From assembly GCA_026400395.1 (NCBI GenBank), contig JAPLPD010000145.1:1-55245 (forward strand): a stretch of 55,245 nt of DNA. Reading direction: 5' to 3'. The stretch comes from Alphaproteobacteria bacterium. Its GTDB lineage: Bacteria > Pseudomonadota > Alphaproteobacteria > Rhizobiales > Xanthobacteraceae. Below, in pieces: positions 43,857 through 54,783 of this stretch (positions are counted from its first letter, which is position 1; each line of letters starts with the position of its first letter). The notes under the pieces were generated by a model that saw only the letters and a program-made list of their open reading frames with translations, made no database searches and was not told where the DNA came from. A program made the position numbers and the translations under genes.

Positions 43857-44891
43857 ATGTCAGCGACGACATTCAAGCTCGCGCCGGCGGCCGCACTGGT
43901 GATTTTGCTCGCCGCCGCTCCATCAGCATCGGCGCAGGACAAGACCATCGAGCTCAAGCTCGCGCACTGGGTACCGGCGTCGCATCCGCTGCAGAAGGGC
44001 TTCGAGGAATGGGGCCAGTCGGTCGAGAAGGCCTCGGGCGGCACAATCAAATACAAGATCTATCCGTCCGAGCAGCTCGGCAAGGCGTTCGACCATTACG
44101 ACATGGCGCGCGACGGCATTGCCGACCTGACCTACATTAACCCGGGCTATCAGCCGGGCCGTTTTCCGATCATCGGCGCCGGCGAACTGCCGTTCCTGAT
44201 GGCGAACGCCAAGGGCGGCTCATCGGCGCTCGATGCCTGGTATCGCAAATACGCCGCCGCCGAGATGAAGGGCGTAAAGTACTGCCTCGCGTTCGTGCAC
44301 GATCCGGGCTCGTTTCATTCGCGCACCAAGAAGATCACGGTGCCCGCCGACATCAAGGGCATGAAAATCCGTCCGGCTCACGCCACCATGGCCACCTGGA
44401 TGACGCAGCTCGGCGCCACCAACGTGCAGGGCGCGGCGCCGCAGGTGCGTGACATCATCGAGAAGGGCGTCGCCGACGCGGTGACCTTCCCCTGGGGCTC
44501 GGTGGTGCTGTTCGGCGTCGACAAGGTGACGAAGTACCACATGGAGGCGCCGCTCTACGTGACCACGTTCGCCTTTACGATGAACAAAGGCACCTATGAC
44601 CGGATGTCCGCCGCGCAGAAGAAGGTGATCGACGATCACTGCACCACCGAGTGGGCCGGCAAGATCGGCGGGCCGTGGGCCGACTTCGAGCACGCCGGCA
44701 TCGCCAAGATCAAGGCGCAGGCCGATCACGAGGTCTATTCGATCTCGAAGGAGCAACTCGGCGAGTGGCGCAAGTCCGCCGAGCCGCTGATCAACACCTG
44801 GTCGGCCAACGTCAAGAAGACCGGCGGCGACCCGGATGGCGCGATGAAGGAACTGCAGGACAAGCTGAAGCAGTACACCGCGTCGTACTGA
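43857..44891 (+). CDS. dctP: TRAP transporter substrate-binding protein (DctP family)
   Basis: 344 residues; signal peptide ends PSASAQ, then LAHWVPASHPLQKGFEEWGQSVEKASGG, typical of DctP. The carboxylate-binding Arg is expected in KGMKIRPAHATM, and FPWGSVVLFGVDKVTKYH is the family hinge area. In Rhodopseudomonas, TRAP systems carry aromatic acids such as coumarate; the neighbouring CoA ligase genes make that a reasonable ligand class. Start at 43857 follows GGGAGGG. Confidence 0.9.
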   Translation: MSATTFKLAPAAALVILLAAAPSASAQDKTIELKLAHWVPASHPLQKGFEEWGQSVEKASGGTIKYKIYPSEQLGKAFDHYDMARDGIADLTYINPGYQPGRFPIIGAGELPFLMANAKGGSSALDAWYRKYAAAEMKGVKYCLAFVHDPGSFHSRTKKITVPADIKGMKIRPAHATMATWMTQLGATNVQGAAPQVRDIIEKGVADAVTFPWGSVVLFGVDKVTKYHMEAPLYVTTFAFTMNKGTYDRMSAAQKKVIDDHCTTEWAGKIGGPWADFEHAGIAKIKAQADHEVYSISKEQLGEWRKSAEPLINTWSANVKKTGGDPDGAMKELQDKLKQYTASY

Positions 44892-44948
44892 GCCGCCTGA
44901 ATGACGATCGTCATCGAGCGAAGCATCCGCCGCGACGGCGGCGAACTC

Positions 44949-44969
44949 CCTCTCCCCTTTGGGGAGAGG
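44949..44969. repeat. CCTCTCCCC hairpin between dctP and dctQ
   Basis: CCTCTCCCC TTT GGGGAGAGG: a perfect 9-bp stem with a 3-nt loop, 58 bp after the dctP stop. It resembles the repeats at 31130 and 54805 and the mutS element. As a stable hairpin it could lower transcription or protect the 3' end so that DctP exceeds DctQM. Confidence 0.7.
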
Positions 44970-45021
44970 TGAAGAGAGTGCGTGGCTGACACTTTTGGGC
45001 GCAGCCGAAGGGAGCGATCGC

Positions 45022-45534
45022 GTGCCGCGCAATCTGATGGATCGCTTCATCGATGCCATCGAACTGATCGCGGCTGTCTTCGTCGGCATCGTCGCCTTCG
45101 ACACGTTCCTGATCGTCATGCTGCGCTACTTCTTCAACATCGGCATTCCCGACAGCTACGACTTCGGCCAACTTCTGCTCGGCATCCTGATCTTCTGGGG
45201 CATCGCCGCCACCTCCTATCGCGGCGCGCACATCACCGTCGATCTGGTCTGGGCCAATGCCAGTCCGCGCTGGCAGCGCGTGATCGACGTGTTCGCCACG
45301 CTGGTGCTGCTGTTCGTCGTCACCGTGCAGACCTACACGCTGCTCGACAAGGTGATCTCGACCTACGAGTCGAACCTTGCGACGTTCGAACTGCGCCTGC
45401 CGACCTGGCCGTTTTTCGCCATTGCATGGCTCGGCGACGCCGCCGCCGTTCTGCTGATCGCGGTGCGGACCTATCGGCTGATCTTCCGTCCGGAGCTGCT
45501 TGGCGGCTCATACCAGATCAAGCCGGTCGAATGA
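45022..45534 (+). CDS. dctQ: TRAP transporter small membrane subunit (DctQ)
   Basis: 170 residues with four membrane segments (about 8-30, 44-64, 83-105, 125-147); marks are MLRYFFNIGIPDSYDFGQLLLGILIFWGIAATSYRGAHITVD. It joins DctM in the membrane complex driven by the Na+ gradient. GTG at 45022 was chosen because GGAG lies 7 nt upstream; an upstream ATG at 44959 would translate through the hairpin. Confidence 0.88.
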   Translation: MPRNLMDRFIDAIELIAAVFVGIVAFDTFLIVMLRYFFNIGIPDSYDFGQLLLGILIFWGIAATSYRGAHITVDLVWANASPRWQRVIDVFATLVLLFVVTVQTYTLLDKVISTYESNLATFELRLPTWPFFAIAWLGDAAAVLLIAVRTYRLIFRPELLGGSYQIKPVE

Positions 45535-45544
45535 GGCGCAACGC

Positions 45545-46855
45545 ATGAGCTTCGATCTCAGCCCCGAAGCGGTGGCTATCGTCGGCTTCGTCGCGCTGTT
45601 TGCGCTGATGCTGCTGCGCGTTCCGGTCGGCATGGCCATGGGTTTGGTCGGTGTCGCGGGCTTTGCCTATCTCAACGGCGGCGGCCCGGCGCTCAAGATC
45701 GTCGGCCACACCTCGATGCGAACCGTCACCGACTGGAATTTCGCGGTTATCCCGATGTTCCTGCTGATGGGCTCCTTCGCCACCACCTCCGGCATGAGCC
45801 GCGAGTTGTTTCGCGCGGGCAATGCCTTCCTCGGCCATCTGCGCGGCGGACTCGGCATTGCCACCATCGCCGCCTGCGGCGGGTTCGCCGCGATCTGCGG
45901 CTCCTCGGTTGCGACCGCGGCGACCTTCTCGCGCGTCGCCTATCCGGAGATGCGGCGCTACGGCTATCCGCAATCGTTCTCGACCGGCGTGATCGCCGCC
46001 GGCGGAACGCTCGGCATCATGATCCCGCCCTCGACCGTATTCGCCGTGTACGGCCTGATCACCGAGCAGGACGTCGGCAAGCTGTTCATCGCCGGCGTCG
46101 TTCCGGGCCTGCTCGCGGTCGCCATGTACATGCTGACCATCACCGCGATCGGCCTGCTCCGGCCGGGCTTCCTGCCGGCCGGTCCGCGCAGCACATGGCC
46201 GGAACGGCTGGCGGCGATGCGCGACGTCTGGGCGACGCTGCTGCTGTTCGCCTTCGTCATCGGCGGGATCTATGGCGGGCTGTTCACCGCGACCGAAGCC
46301 GCCGGCATGGGCGCGGCCGGCGCGTTCATCATCGGCGTCGCGCGCGGGCGGCTTTCGCTCGCCGACATCCGCCGCTCGCTGCTGGAAGCCACCCGCACCA
46401 CCGCCGCGGTGTTCACCGTGCTGATCGGCGCGCTGCTGTTCGGCTATTTCCTCACCATCACGCAGACGCCTCAGAACGTCACCGAATTCCTCACCGGCCT
46501 CGGCATCGGCAAGTACGGCATCCTGGCGCTGATCATGCTGATGTATCTCGTGCTCGGCTGCCTGATGGACGCCCTCGCCATGATCATTCTGACCGTGCCG
46601 ATCGTGTTCCCGGTGATCAAGGCGCTGGGCTTCGATCCGATCTGGTTCGGCGTCATCGTCGTGATGACGGTCGAACTCGGCCTGATCCACCCGCCGGTCG
46701 GCATGAACATCTTCGTGATCAAGAGCGTGGTCGAGGACGTGAAGATTTCGACCATTTTCTACGGCGTCCTCCCGTTCATCATCACCGACCTGATCCGGCT
46801 GGTCATCCTGATCGCCTTCCCGGTCCTCGCGCTCTGGCTGCCGTCGCATATGTGA
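45545..46855 (+). CDS. dctM: TRAP transporter large membrane subunit (DctM)
   Basis: 436 residues, about twelve hydrophobic segments, forming the ion-coupled channel. Marks: LRVPVGMAMGLVGVAGF, FLLMGSFATTSGMSRELF, AACGGFAAICGSSVATAATF, GTLGIMIPPSTVFAVYG and GLIHPPVGMNIFVIKSV. Start at 45545 after the DctQ stop by 10 bp. Almost 200 bp without a recognisable gene follow before the amidohydrolase. Confidence 0.93.
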   Translation: MSFDLSPEAVAIVGFVALFALMLLRVPVGMAMGLVGVAGFAYLNGGGPALKIVGHTSMRTVTDWNFAVIPMFLLMGSFATTSGMSRELFRAGNAFLGHLRGGLGIATIAACGGFAAICGSSVATAATFSRVAYPEMRRYGYPQSFSTGVIAAGGTLGIMIPPSTVFAVYGLITEQDVGKLFIAGVVPGLLAVAMYMLTITAIGLLRPGFLPAGPRSTWPERLAAMRDVWATLLLFAFVIGGIYGGLFTATEAAGMGAAGAFIIGVARGRLSLADIRRSLLEATRTTAAVFTVLIGALLFGYFLTITQTPQNVTEFLTGLGIGKYGILALIMLMYLVLGCLMDALAMIILTVPIVFPVIKALGFDPIWFGVIVVMTVELGLIHPPVGMNIFVIKSVVEDVKISTIFYGVLPFIITDLIRLVILIAFPVLALWLPSHM

Positions 46856-48986: not shown

Positions 48987-51737
48987 ATGGACGCCGCCCG
49001 GAACCTGCCCCCCGATGACGCCGCTGCGCCGCCGCCGGAACCGGTGGCTCCGCCGACCCCCGTGATGGCGCAGTACATCGAGATCAAGGCGGCCAATCCG
49101 GAGTGCCTCTTGTTCTACCGGATGGGCGATTTCTACAAATTGTTCTTCGAGGACGCCGAGACCGCCAGCCGCGCGCTCGGCATCGTGCTGACCAAGCGCG
49201 GCAAGCACCTCGGCCGCGACATCCCGATGTGCGGCGTGCCGGTCATCCGCTCCGACGAATACCTGCACCGCCTGATCGCCCAGGGCCATCGCGTCGCAGT
49301 GTGCGAACAGACCGAGGACCCGGCCGAGGCGAAGAAGCGCGGATCGAAGTCGGTGGTGAAGCGCGACGTCGTGCGCCTCGTCACGCCCGGCACGCTGACC
49401 GAGGACACGCTGCTCGACGCCCGGCGCAACAACTACCTGCTCGCCATCGCGCGGGCGCGCGCCTCGGCCGCCGACGCGGCGAGCCAATTCGCGCTCGCCT
49501 GGATCGACATTTCCACCGGCGAGTTCCGCATCGCGGAATGCGACCGCGCCGGGCTGCCCGCAGAGATCGCGCGGCTGGAGCCCGGCGAGATCGTGGTGTC
49601 CGACGCGCTCTACTCCGACCCGGAGTTGGCGCCGTATCTGCGCACGCTGCCGGCCGTGACGCCGGTGACGCGCGACGTGTTCGATGGCGCCACCGCCGAA
49701 CGGCGGCTGTCGGATTATTTCGCGGTCGCCACCAGCGCGGCGTTCGGCGCGTTGTCGCGGCTGGAGCTGAACGCCGCCGCAGCCTGTGTCACTTACGTGG
49801 AGCGCACGCAACTCGGCAAACGGCCGCCGCTGTCGCCTCCGGTTCGCGAAGCGCACGGCACCACGCTGTCGATCGATCAGGCCACGCGGGCAAACCTCGA
49901 ACTGGTCCGCACACTCGGCGGCGAACGGCGCGGCTCGCTGCTCGCCGCCATCGACCGCACCGTCACCTCGGCCGGTTCGCGGCTGCTGGCGCAGCGGCTC
50001 GCCGCGCCGCTGACCGATCCGACGGCGATTGGCCAGCGGCTCGACACCGTGGAGATTTTCGTCGGCGACGCGCTCGCCCGCCAGCAGACCCGCGAACTGC
50101 TGGCGATCGCGCCGGACATGGCACGAGCGCTGGCCCGGCTGGTGGTCGGCCGCGGCGGGCCGCGCGACCTCGCCGCCATTCGTGACGGCATCGGGGTGGC
50201 GACGGGACTCGCTGCGCGGCTCGACAAGCTCGCGAAAAAGTCCTCGGAGCTGAACAGCGTGCTCGGCGCGCTGCTTGCGCCTGAGCAGGCCGTGATGCGC
50301 GAGATGATCGCAGCGCTCGCGGATGAACTTCCGCTGTTCAAGCGCGACGGCGGCTTTGTGCGCGAAGGCTACGACGCGGCGCTGGACGAGTCGCGGAGCC
50401 TGCGCGACCAGTCGCGCCAGGTGGTGGCTCAGCTGCAGGCCCGCTACGCCGACAACACCGGCGTCAAGTCACTGAAGATACGGCACAATAACGTGCTCGG
50501 CTATTTCGTCGACGTGACCGCGCAGCATGGCGAGAAACTGCTCGGCGCACCGCTCAACGCGACCTTCATCCACCGCCAGACCCTTGCGGGGCAAGTCAGA
50601 TTTACGACGACCGAGCTGGGCGATCTGGAATCGAAAATCGCCAGCGCCGGCGACCGCGTACTCGGCCTGGAGCTGGAGATATTCGAGCGGCTTTCCGCGA
50701 TGGTCGTGGCCGCGAGCATCGAAATCAAAGCCGCCGCCGAGGCGCTCGCGGTGCTCGATGTTTCGTCGGCGCTGGCGATGCTCGCGGTCGAGCGTGCCTA
50801 TGTTCGCCCGGAGATCGACCGCTCGGTGGACTTCATCATCGAAGGCGGCCGCCACGCCGTGGTCGAGCAGGCAATCAGCGATCCGTTCGTGGCCAACGAT
50901 TGCGATCTTTCGCCGCCACCCCCTCCCTTCCCTCCCCCGCTTGCGGGGGAGGGAAGGGAGGGGGCCGGGCGCATCTGGCTGCTCACCGGCCCGAACATGG
51001 CGGGCAAGTCGACCTTCCTGCGGCAGAACGCGCTCATCGTCGTGCTGGCGCAAATGGGCGGCTTTGTTCCGGCAAAGCGCGCCAAGCTCGGCGTCGTCGA
51101 TCGCTTGTTCTCGCGCGTCGGCGCCGCCGACGATCTGGCGCGCGGGCGTTCGACATTCATGGTCGAGATGGTGGAGACCGCGGCGATCCTCAATCAGGCC
51201 GGCGAGCGTTCGCTGGTCATACTGGACGAAATCGGACGCGGCACCGCGACGTTTGACGGCCTTTCGATCGCCTGGGCGTCGATCGAGCACCTGCATGAGC
51301 AGAACCGTTGCCGCGCGTTGTTCGCGACGCATTTTCATGAGCTCACCGCGCTGGCGCCCAAGCTCAACCGTCTGCACAACGCCACCGTCCGCGTGAAGGA
51401 ATGGCAGGGCGAGGTGGTGTTCCTGCATGAGGTGATCCCCGGCGCGGCCGACCATTCCTACGGTATCCAGGTGGCGAAGCTTGCCGGATTGCCCACCGGG
51501 GTGATCGAGCGGGCCAAGGTGGTGCTCGCGATGCTCGAAGCCGACGACCGCGCCAAACCGCGCGGTTTCGAGGACCTTCCGTTGTTCGCAGCGCCGCTCC
51601 GGCCGGCGGCGCCGGACCCAAGGCAGGCCGCGATCGACGCGGTGCTCACGATGCTCGGGTCCGTACATCCTGACGAACTGTCGCCTCGCGAGGCGCTCGA
51701 GGCGTTGTACGCGCTCAAGCAGCGTGCTCCCGGCTGA
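48987..51737 (+). CDS. mutS: DNA mismatch repair protein MutS, with altered mismatch motif and in-frame insertion
   Basis: 916-residue MutS, which scans DNA for mispairs and recruits MutL. Clear parts: mismatch domain from [26 protein letters not shown], connector, lever and clamp, then Walker [10 protein letters not shown], Walker [25 protein letters not shown] and a C-terminal helical tail. Two oddities. The Phe-X-Glu motif that contacts the mispair (GDFYEL in nearly all MutS1) reads GDFYKL: F49, K51, codon AAA at 49137. And residues about 645-660, just before Walker A, come from a 46-bp perfect palindrome inserted in frame. Otherwise intact and full length. Confidence 0.95.
50919..50964. 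repeat. 22-bp-stem palindrome inserted in the mutS coding frame
   Basis: Arms 50919-50940 and 50943-50964 are perfect reverse complements (22 bp) with loop TT, made of C-runs split by T on the left and G-runs split by A on the right. It translates into proline-rich [17 protein letters not shown]. The CTCCC/GGGAG make-up resembles the intergenic elements at 31130, 44949 and 54805. Reading frame is kept on both sides. Confidence 0.9.
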
Positions 51738-51815: not shown

Positions 51816-52790
51816 ATGAACATCGTGCTTGGGCGCCTGATTCTGCTCGCCTGCCTGCTCGCTTGCGAAGCCCCGCCTGCGCTGGCGCAGACCTACCCCA
51901 ACCGCACCGTCACCATCGTGGTGACATCCGCCGCCGGCGCGCTGACCGACGCGCTGACCCGCGCCGTCGCCCAGCGGCTATCGCAGATGTGGGGCCAGAG
52001 CATCATCGTCGAAAATCGTGGCGGCGCGGGCCACAACCTCGCCGCCGCCGCGGTCAAGGCCGCCGCCGCCGACGGCTACACGCTGCTGTCCTCCGAGACC
52101 GGATTCGCCACCAGCCAGCCGCACCTGCACAGCAAGAGCAAGTCCGCCTACGACCCGGAGACGGACTTCATCCCGGTCGCGGGATACGCCGGAATCCCCA
52201 TCGGCGTGCTGGTGAATCCGTCGTTGCCGGTGAAGTCGATGGCCGAGTTCATCGCCGTCGCCAAGCAGAAGCCGCTCACCTATGGCACCGCGGGCCTCGG
52301 CACCGCCCCGCACACCGCGGCGCTGCTTCTGGAAAGCATGGCCGGCATCAAGATGACCGCTGTGCACTATCGCGGCGCAGCCCCAGCGCTGAACGACCTG
52401 ATCGCCGGCCACATCAACATGATCACCATGGGGCCGTCGGTGGCGCTGCCTGCGGTCAAGGACGGCAAGATCAACATCCTCGGCTTCGGCAGCGAGAAGC
52501 GCGTCGCGCAATATCCGGACGTGCCGACTGTGGCCGAAACGGTGCCGGGCTACGAGGCCGCCGTCTCGTTCGGCCTGTTCGCGCTGAAGACAACGCCGCG
52601 CGACATTCTCATCAAGATCAATACAGACATACAGAATGTCATCCACGACCCGGAATTTCACAAGCGCTTCCTGGAGTCGCTGGTGGTGCAGCCCATACCG
52701 GGCTCGCTGGATGCGTTCGCCGAGTATCTGCGCAAGGACTCCGCCAAGTGGGCCCAAGTCATCAACGCGGCAAATTTGAAAATCGATTGA
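51816..52790 (+). CDS. Bug/TctC-family solute-binding protein, tandem copy 1
   Basis: 324 residues; signal peptide ends PPALAQ, mature YPNRTVTIVVTSAAGALTDALTRAVAQRLSQMWGQ, ligand loop VHYRGAAPALNDLIAGHINM. The AAGALTD loop differs from AxGGVxD in copies 2 and 3, so the ligand may differ. Starts 78 bp after mutS with GGGAGG ahead of the ATG. Next copy starts 8 bp after its stop. No tctA/tctB in the window. Confidence 0.9.
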   Translation: MNIVLGRLILLACLLACEAPPALAQTYPNRTVTIVVTSAAGALTDALTRAVAQRLSQMWGQSIIVENRGGAGHNLAAAAVKAAAADGYTLLSSETGFATSQPHLHSKSKSAYDPETDFIPVAGYAGIPIGVLVNPSLPVKSMAEFIAVAKQKPLTYGTAGLGTAPHTAALLLESMAGIKMTAVHYRGAAPALNDLIAGHINMITMGPSVALPAVKDGKINILGFGSEKRVAQYPDVPTVAETVPGYEAAVSFGLFALKTTPRDILIKINTDIQNVIHDPEFHKRFLESLVVQPIPGSLDAFAEYLRKDSAKWAQVINAANLKID

Positions 52791-52798
52791 GGGGCGCG

Positions 52799-53779
52799 AT
52801 GCGGACCCGGCTCGGCACAATCGGCTTGCTTGGATGCATGCTGGCTTGCCTGTTGGCCGGAACGCCCGCGCAGGCGCAATCCTATCCTAACAGGCCGATC
52901 ACCATCGTGGTTCCGGCCGCGCCCGGCGGCGTCAGCGACGTGATGGCGCGCCTGGTGGCCCAGCGCCTCCAGACTGCATGGGGCCAGCAGGTCATCGTCG
53001 AAAACCGCGGCGGGGCAAACCATGCCATCGGCGCGGCAATGGTCGGCAAAGCCGCGCCCGACGGTCACACCATGATGGTCGCCGCCGAGACGGTTTTCGT
53101 CATCAATCCCACGCTGCATTCAGGGAAGCTGCCCTACGATATCAGTGACTTCGCGCCGGTCACCGGCCTTGTCCGCATCAACCAGGGGCTGCTCGCGCAT
53201 CCTTCGCTGCCGGCCAACAACATCGCCGAACTGATTGCGCTCGCCAGACAGAAACCCGGCGAGATCACCTACGGCAGTTCCGGTCTGGGCGCCGCCGGTC
53301 ACGTCAACGTCGCGCTGCTGGAAAGCATGTCCGGCATCAAGCTCTCGCCGATTCACTACCGCGGCGCGACGCCCGCGCTCAACGACGTGCTCGCCGGACA
53401 CATCATGCTCACCTCCGTCAGTCTCAGCGCGTCGGTGCCACCCTATCGCGCCGGCAAGGCGAAGATGCTCGCGGTCGGCAGCGCCAAGCGCCTGCCTGAC
53501 CTCCCCGAGGTGCCGGCGACCGCCGAGACGGTGCCCGGCTACGAAGCCGTCACCTGGTTCGGGCTGTTCACCACCAACGGCACGCCGCGCGAGATCATCG
53601 GCAGGATCAACGCCGAGATGCGGGGGCTGTTCGCCGACCAGGTTTTCATCGACCGGACCATCGCTCCCAACATGTTCGAGTCGATGGTCAGCACGCCCGA
53701 GCAATTCGCCGAGTTCATCAAGGCCGACAGCGCCAAATGGTCCAAGGTGCTGCGCGAAGCCAACATCAAGGTCGATTAG
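52799..53779 (+). CDS. Bug/TctC-family solute-binding protein, tandem copy 2
   Basis: 326 residues; signal peptide ends TPAQAQ, then YPNRPITIVVPAAPGGVSDVMARLVAQRLQTAWGQQ and IHYRGATPALNDVLAGHIM. ATG at 52799 chosen because it begins the signal peptide; the frame is open far upstream through copy 1. Copies 2 and 3 are closer to each other than to copy 1 by the GGV loop and GLVRINQ stretch. Confidence 0.9.
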   Translation: MRTRLGTIGLLGCMLACLLAGTPAQAQSYPNRPITIVVPAAPGGVSDVMARLVAQRLQTAWGQQVIVENRGGANHAIGAAMVGKAAPDGHTMMVAAETVFVINPTLHSGKLPYDISDFAPVTGLVRINQGLLAHPSLPANNIAELIALARQKPGEITYGSSGLGAAGHVNVALLESMSGIKLSPIHYRGATPALNDVLAGHIMLTSVSLSASVPPYRAGKAKMLAVGSAKRLPDLPEVPATAETVPGYEAVTWFGLFTTNGTPREIIGRINAEMRGLFADQVFIDRTIAPNMFESMVSTPEQFAEFIKADSAKWSKVLREANIKVD

Positions 53780-53805
53780 GGGACCGCGCCGGAAGGGGGA
53801 AACCC

Positions 53806-54783
53806 ATGAAGAACTGGATTTGCGTTCTGGCTTTGCTCGGTTGCCTGTCGGCCGTGACATCGGCGCAGGCGCAAACCTATCCCGCGCGCCCGATCAACCT
53901 CGTCGTGACGGCGGCCGCCGGTGGGGTGACCGACGTGGTGGCGCGCGCCTTCGGCCAAAAGCTGACTGAAGCCTGGGGCCAGCAGGTGATCGTCGAGAAC
54001 AAGGGCGGCGCCGCTCACGTCACCGGCGCCACATCGGTCGCGCGCGCTGCGCCCGATGGCTACACGCTGCTGGTGGCCGAGGCCGGCACCTTCTCTATCA
54101 ACCCGGCGATCTACCTGCGGGGCAAGCTGACCTACGACGAAAAGACCGACTTCATTCCGATCACAGGACTTGTTCGCATCAATCAGGCGCTGCTCGCCAG
54201 CAATTCGCTGCCGGTGTCGAACGTCAAGGAATTGATCGAACTTGCCAAGAAAAAGCCCGGCGAACTGACCTTCGGCACCGCGGGCGTCGGCTCCGCGCCG
54301 CACATGAACATCGAGCTTCTGCAGTACATGACGGGCATAAAACTCGTACCGGTGCATTACCGCGGCGCGGCTCCCGCGCTGACCGATGTGATGGCCGGAC
54401 ATATCAACCTGATGTCGGTCAGCGCCAGTTTGGCTCTGCCGCCGCATCGGGCCGGCCAGATCAAGATCCTCGGCATTGGCAGCGAGAAGCGGATGTCGGT
54501 GGCGGCCGACATCCCAACCGTGGCCGAGACCGGACTGCCGGGCTACGAGGCAACCACTTGGTTCGGCCTTTTCGCGCCGGCCGGCACGCCGCGCGACGTT
54601 GTGATGAAGCTCAACGCCGAAGCCAAGAAAGTCTTTTCCGATCCGGTGTTCGAGGAGAAGTTCATGGCGCCGCAAATGTTCCAGTCGCTGGTGATGGCGC
54701 AGGAGCATTTCGACACCTTCATCAAGGCCGAAATCCAGAAATGGTCGAAGGTGATCCAAGCCGCCAAAATCAAGATCGAATAA
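53806..54783 (+). CDS. Bug/TctC-family solute-binding protein, tandem copy 3
   Basis: 325 residues; signal peptide ends TSAQAQ, then YPARPINLVVTAAAGGVTDVVARAFGQKLTEAWGQQ and VHYRGAAPALTDVMAGHINLM. GGAAGGGGG precedes the ATG. The oligogalacturonide-lyase-like gene starts 187 bp downstream on the same strand, beyond a repeat, so a plant-sugar acid ligand is conceivable but unproven. Confidence 0.9.
   Translation: MKNWICVLALLGCLSAVTSAQAQTYPARPINLVVTAAAGGVTDVVARAFGQKLTEAWGQQVIVENKGGAAHVTGATSVARAAPDGYTLLVAEAGTFSINPAIYLRGKLTYDEKTDFIPITGLVRINQALLASNSLPVSNVKELIELAKKKPGELTFGTAGVGSAPHMNIELLQYMTGIKLVPVHYRGAAPALTDVMAGHINLMSVSASLALPPHRAGQIKILGIGSEKRMSVAADIPTVAETGLPGYEATTWFGLFAPAGTPRDVVMKLNAEAKKVFSDPVFEEKFMAPQMFQSLVMAQEHFDTFIKAEIQKWSKVIQAAKIKIE

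Follow-up and report, generated by a model that had tools for sequence, protein, structure and literature searches.

The window, that is, the whole stretch of 55,245 nucleotides analysed here, comprises the entire contig C200 of a draft genome of 5.31 Mb in 369 contigs, which is 99.16% complete with 1.37% contamination. It harbors a mutS gene on the forward strand with the following features.

48987-51737, + strand: mutS, coding for a protein of 916 amino acids that is MutS1 by descent, intact and with all five domains (open reading frame, profile matches)
49125-49145, + strand: mismatch-recognition motif, reading GDFYKLF in place of GDFYELF (sequence, alignment with relatives)
49137-49139, + strand: codon AAA for Lys51, which corresponds to Glu38 in E. 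coli MutS (sequence, alignment)
50919-50964, + strand: perfect 46-bp palindrome with 22-nucleotide arms and a 2-nucleotide loop, in frame in the linker of mutS (sequence)
50988-51014, + strand: Walker A motif GPNMAGKST, intact (sequence)

The mutS gene and its substituted motif

The reading frame of mutS is open over its full length of 916 codons without a stop or a frameshift, and the encoded protein exceeds the cut-off of the mutS1 profile TIGR01070 of NCBIfam (810.1 bits versus 641.7, residues 24-912). Moreover, the MutS domains I to V of Pfam are all present, and the Walker A signature of domain V (GPNxxGKS/T) is found as GPNMAGKST. In the Phe-X-Glu motif of domain I, Phe is kept and Glu is replaced by Lys. 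The corresponding nucleotides 49125-49145 read GGCGATTTCTACAAATTGTTC, with the translation GDFYKLF. In a phmmer alignment with E. coli MutS (6i5f_A), residue 23 of the query corresponds to residue 10 and the alignment runs free of gaps through the motif; therefore, residue 51 takes the place of Glu38. An earlier note on this DNA had described the GDFYKL motif and its AAA codon at 49137-49139, and both are confirmed here. As the Glu of Phe-X-Glu is replaced, the protein is classed as MutS1 by descent only, and not as a mismatch-recognising protein of the Phe-X-Glu type. At an E value of 0.001, this mutS was the sole match in its genome, and the search did not reveal a second MutS that might compensate for the Lys copy.

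Upstream of mutS, genes of a TRAP transporter are located at 43857-46855, of which DctP and DctM were confirmed, and downstream three consecutive TctC genes (tripartite tricarboxylate receptor) are arranged head to tail at 51816-54783. The DctP of the window shares only about 66% identity with its counterparts from the related genomes G002, G003 and G007, which may reflect replacement or paralogy. For DctM, the identity to G002 and G003 is about 87%, and for the next gene, encoding an amidohydrolase, 93-94%.

A palindromic insertion precedes the Walker A motif

The palindrome at 50919-50964 sits between the residues NDCDLSP and Walker A. The mutS gene of genome G003 carries the palindrome at the same place with the loop AA as compared with TT in the window, and a similar, less perfect palindrome is present at this place in three other genera (loci L012-L014). 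It is absent from this place of mutS in G005, in G007 and in G002, which is the sister of G003 (L003-L005). Including the one in mutS, the genome of the window contains 12 sites of this type with at most two mismatches. The palindrome looks like a dispersed repeat that inserted, perhaps on several occasions, into a linker of MutS that tolerates it. On the + strand, the part of the insert from 50943 to 50964 reads GGGGGAGGGAAGGGAGGGGG, a G-quadruplex-type motif, which lies within a gene whose E. coli relative reportedly binds G4 DNA (PMC3437207; all sources given here by PMC number are quoted from excerpts).

Lys at the wedge position is rare and private to the window among its relatives

The relatives set comprised 61 genomes, the window's own and 60 others, with a MutS match in 57. 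Thirty loci were read, including that of the window, and the motif was covered in 29 of them. All 28 relatives with a readable motif contain Glu at this position, encoded by GAG in 20 and by GAA in 8 cases, and Lys occurs in the window alone. In six relatives the codon pair is GAA TTG, as compared with AAA TTG in the window, in line with the earlier note, which had placed the AAA codon one G-to-A transition away from GAA. The alignment with the closest relatives, which the same note had proposed as a check, thus revealed Lys in none of those read. Among the congeners, Glu is present in nine of ten (the ninth being locus L031), and the tenth genome, G009, gave no MutS match; Lys as a shared clade state of the genus was therefore rejected.

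In an even sample of 289 genomes of the class, 222 match the motif with any residue at this position and 220 with Glu, and 67 are without any match to the motif pattern. Among the matches listed, the genomes without Glu are that of the window, which is the only one seen with Lys, and one with the codon CCC for proline. Within the order, a Lys pattern was found in 3 of 397 genomes, namely in the window and in two frames of 24 and 191 residues that are not MutS and lack a Walker motif.

We further scanned genome_contigs, which by its description covers 84,980 species, with the pattern Met-Gly-Asp-Phe-Tyr-Lys-[xTx]-Phe; this pattern is blind to variants with other neighbouring residues, and records near the window were possibly omitted. 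The scan yielded 12 stretches, two of which are located in MutS-like frames, and the other ten lie in frames that span 17-101 residues and lack a Walker motif. Within this exact pattern, the notion that Lys is common in bacteria is thus rejected. Taken together, the Lys in the MutS of the window is real in the assembly, rare, and private to it among the relatives read.

Separately, we observed a second MutS piece with Glu (L034, L035) on contig C541 of the same-genus draft G006, which is 39-52% identical and may represent contamination of that bin.

Two further MutS frames with Lys

The first of the two MutS-like frames (L036) stems from the rumen Alphaproteobacteria MAG RGIG5026 and encodes an intact MutS of 893 codons with the motif GDFYKLFF, the Lys codon being AAG. 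It is the sole MutS match in its genome. As the protein is about 50% identical to that of the window and belongs to another clade, we infer that its Lys arose independently. In the family of RGIG5026, a MutS match was found in 48 of 49 genomes; 30 loci were read, the genome's own included, and 29 of them contain Glu. The locus closest to that of RGIG5026 is only 66% identical, and the rejection of a shared clade state is less sure here than for the genus of the window. Decay of MutL in RGIG5026 was likewise considered and set aside: the partial MutL match reaches the contig end and provides no evidence of loss.

The second frame (L045; positions 2887-2910, - strand) belongs to a Beijerinckiaceae MAG and comprises 312 codons that cover only the first part of MutS; elsewhere, this genome contains a full-length MutS with Glu beside the truncated Lys copy. 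The name of its contig gives a coverage of 1493, so that a base-calling error is unlikely for this Lys. Altogether, three MutS frames with Lys were seen, one of them a surplus fragment, and none of the relatives read shared the Lys. Both cases outside the window carry MAG labels.

The remainder of MutS is constrained and MutL appears intact

Compared with 27 further sequences of the relatives set, the MutS of the window has two substitutions of its own in columns that are invariant in the others, namely E51K and A558V; over all 28 proteins the number of such private changes ranges from 0 to 8 with a mean of 3.25. In an alignment of 59 MutS proteins, 276 gap-free columns are identical in at least 57 sequences. 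Just two of these columns show a reversal of charge, at residue 51 in the window and in the RGIG5026 genome (there L089), and at residue 369 in one species (L105). Apart from this, neither decay nor an obvious compensating change was seen in the MutS of the window, subtle compensation being possible. A pseudogene was rejected, since the gene is open over its full frame and constrained.

The MutL of the same genome is encoded by a full-length open frame. It is regarded as intact because it matches its profile from position 1 to 554 of 555 and contains the endonuclease motif (DQHAAHERLVY); three text patterns for the ATPase motifs of MutL had no match in any of four MutL proteins, those of relatives included, and are thus uninformative. 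Judged by its sequence, the MutS of the window is, apart from residue 51, an ordinary, constrained MutS1, and the earlier view that the rest of the protein looks intact is borne out by the open frame, the five domains and the constraint. The accompanying suggestion that the strain may use MutS mainly for another role is not supported, given the lack of a second MutS match, the full-length MutL and the number of private changes, which lies below the mean.

The lineage bears no clear mark of a long-standing mutator

A tree was built from mutS, mutL and the neighbouring amidohydrolase gene, in which the branch of the window has a length of 0.102, as compared with 0.096-0.101 for the path to two sister species. 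Private changes were summed over mutS, mutL, the amidohydrolase gene and DctM; the two other TRAP genes were left out because the copies of the window share only about 66-71% identity with the rest. In the region of mutS, the DNA is about 79% identical to that of the sisters. At fourfold sites of the four genes, the ratio of transitions to transversions among these changes is 17:54 in the window, as compared with 8:33 and 14:28 in the two sister species; without DctM, the corresponding numbers are 14:38 versus 4:22 and 11:18.

The ratio of nonsynonymous to synonymous private changes over the four genes is 103:170 in the window versus 39:94 and 20:85 in the sisters, and this higher ratio runs against a reading without a mutator signature. 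Much of it is contributed by DctM (43:42). Without DctM, the ratio of 60:128 resembles that of one sister (32:70) and lies above that of the other (17:67), and for mutS alone the values are 28:50 versus 15:20 and 8:23. Regarding rate and transition bias, there is no clear excess over the two sisters that would point to a long-standing mutator, in a test with small counts that is blind to a recent one. Since neither branch length nor transition bias lies clearly above that of the sisters, any mutator state would have to be recent. Of the proposal that the strain may be a mutator, the lasting form is consequently not supported, and a recent mutator would have been missed.

Discussion

MutS licenses repair after recognition of a mismatch, and the negative charge of Glu38 limits its binding to normal DNA. 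In the excerpted literature, Phe36 is described to stack on the mispaired base, and Glu38 to bond with N3 of T or N7 of purines. According to a review, the E38Q exchange abolishes discrimination, and structures of E. coli MutS with E38A, E38Q and E38T are available (1WBB, 1WBD and 1WB9, respectively; PMC3848065). Likewise, replacement of Glu38 by Ala is reported to leave the enzyme unable to recognise mismatches (PMC12292046). These reports agree with the earlier statement that replacing this Glu in model MutS proteins changes function. Among the papers searched, three mention both MutS and E38K, and judged by title and abstract start none of them deals with such a protein.

The protein encoded in the window shares with E. 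coli MutS and the bacterial MutS1 family (TIGR01070/NF003810) the domain order, Walker A, the wedge Phe and the occurrence of one copy alongside MutL in the genome, and differs from them by Lys at the place of Glu38 and by the palindromic insert in the linker before Walker A. In the E. coli variants E38A, E38Q and E38T the same residue is replaced and the same Glu contact is lost, whereas the Lys of the window adds a positive charge and is, if real, a natural change. A natural loss of wedge residues has been described for the cyanobacterial-like MutS1 of Zygnema and ferns, which lack Phe36 and/or Glu38 (PMC12292046); however, these proteins come from plants and algae and belong to a different lineage. 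A parallel state, the intact MutS1 with Lys in RGIG5026, differs in its AAG codon and is about half identical in sequence.

In our judgement, the MutS of the window is most likely explained by a damaging variant of recent origin or by an error of sequencing, rather than by a novel type of repair protein. As to the first, there is an even chance that an otherwise normal single-copy MutS1 carries a recent, private and damaging G-to-A allele in this lineage or strain, a reading in which the presence of the substitution in living cells is inferred. A single recent transition from GAA to AAA would have replaced the wedge Glu by Lys. Phe49 could still stack on the mispaired base, but Lys51 would not be able to provide the hydrogen bond of the Glu38 type to N3 or N7, and the negative charge that restrains MutS on normal DNA would be lost. 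MutS would then distinguish less between matched and mismatched DNA in binding and fail to license repair, which would make the strain a typical mutS mutator whose history is too short to show in sequence divergence. By analogy with the published role of Glu38, loss of mismatch discrimination through Lys51 is the natural expectation, since Lys cannot make the Glu bond and would add charge toward the DNA; the earlier prediction that Lys should disturb discrimination is in accord with this. The missing mutator trace fits a damaging allele only if the change is young.

It is also quite possible, if less so, that the consensus is wrong at one base, miscalled or taken from a minority strain in a draft that is perhaps derived from a metagenome, and that the MutS of the cells is an ordinary one with Glu. 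The base at 49137 may be wrong because the genome is a draft of 369 contigs, and only one assembly of the species was seen. Both other Lys cases in MutS frames are labelled as MAGs, Lys was found in no relative read, and neither relaxed constraint nor a mutator history is visible. On the other hand, the high completeness and low contamination of the genome, the reading frame without frameshift or stop and the below-average number of private changes at invariant columns argue against an error, as does the coverage named for the contig of the Beijerinckiaceae MAG, which renders a miscall improbable at least there.

We consider it unlikely that Lys is simply tolerated, with Phe49, DNA bending and other contacts providing enough discrimination, so that the change would be nearly neutral in this background. 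The second intact Lys protein, in a genome without another MutS match, leaves room for such tolerance: two intact and otherwise typical MutS1 proteins contain Lys, and a mutator trace is missing. Moreover, some mismatches, for example C:C, are said not to be bonded to the equivalent Glu434 of human MSH6 (PMC8395337). This reading is opposed by the Glu found in all 28 relatives and in 29 of the 30 loci from the family of RGIG5026, and by the loss of recognition or discrimination reported for Ala or Gln (PMC12292046, PMC3848065).

A re-purposed MutS, in which Lys shifts binding to loops or non-B DNA, appears very improbable. The eukaryotic Msh3 uses a Tyr-Lys pair for insertion/deletion loops (PMC11912836), and E. 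coli MutS F36A is reported to retain binding to G4 DNA (PMC3437207); however, this possibility is rated low because the Msh3 pair is a different arrangement, and in the window Phe is kept, no relative read shares the Lys, and the genome lacks a second MutS match that could take over repair. Equally far-fetched is the idea that the exchange of the wedge Glu for Lys is a viable, independently repeated alphaproteobacterial state, in which MutS is not destroyed but changes its target structures, with loops or G-rich DNA preferred to base mismatches.

Few residues of this widespread repair protein are as constrained as the wedge Glu, and a natural reversal of its charge represents a ready-made functional test. 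If the Lys codon is due to a base-calling error, it is a caution against inferring function from a single base of a draft genome. A real but harmless substitution would call the accepted role of Glu38 into question. If the change is both real and damaging, an environmental mutator would have been caught from sequence alone.
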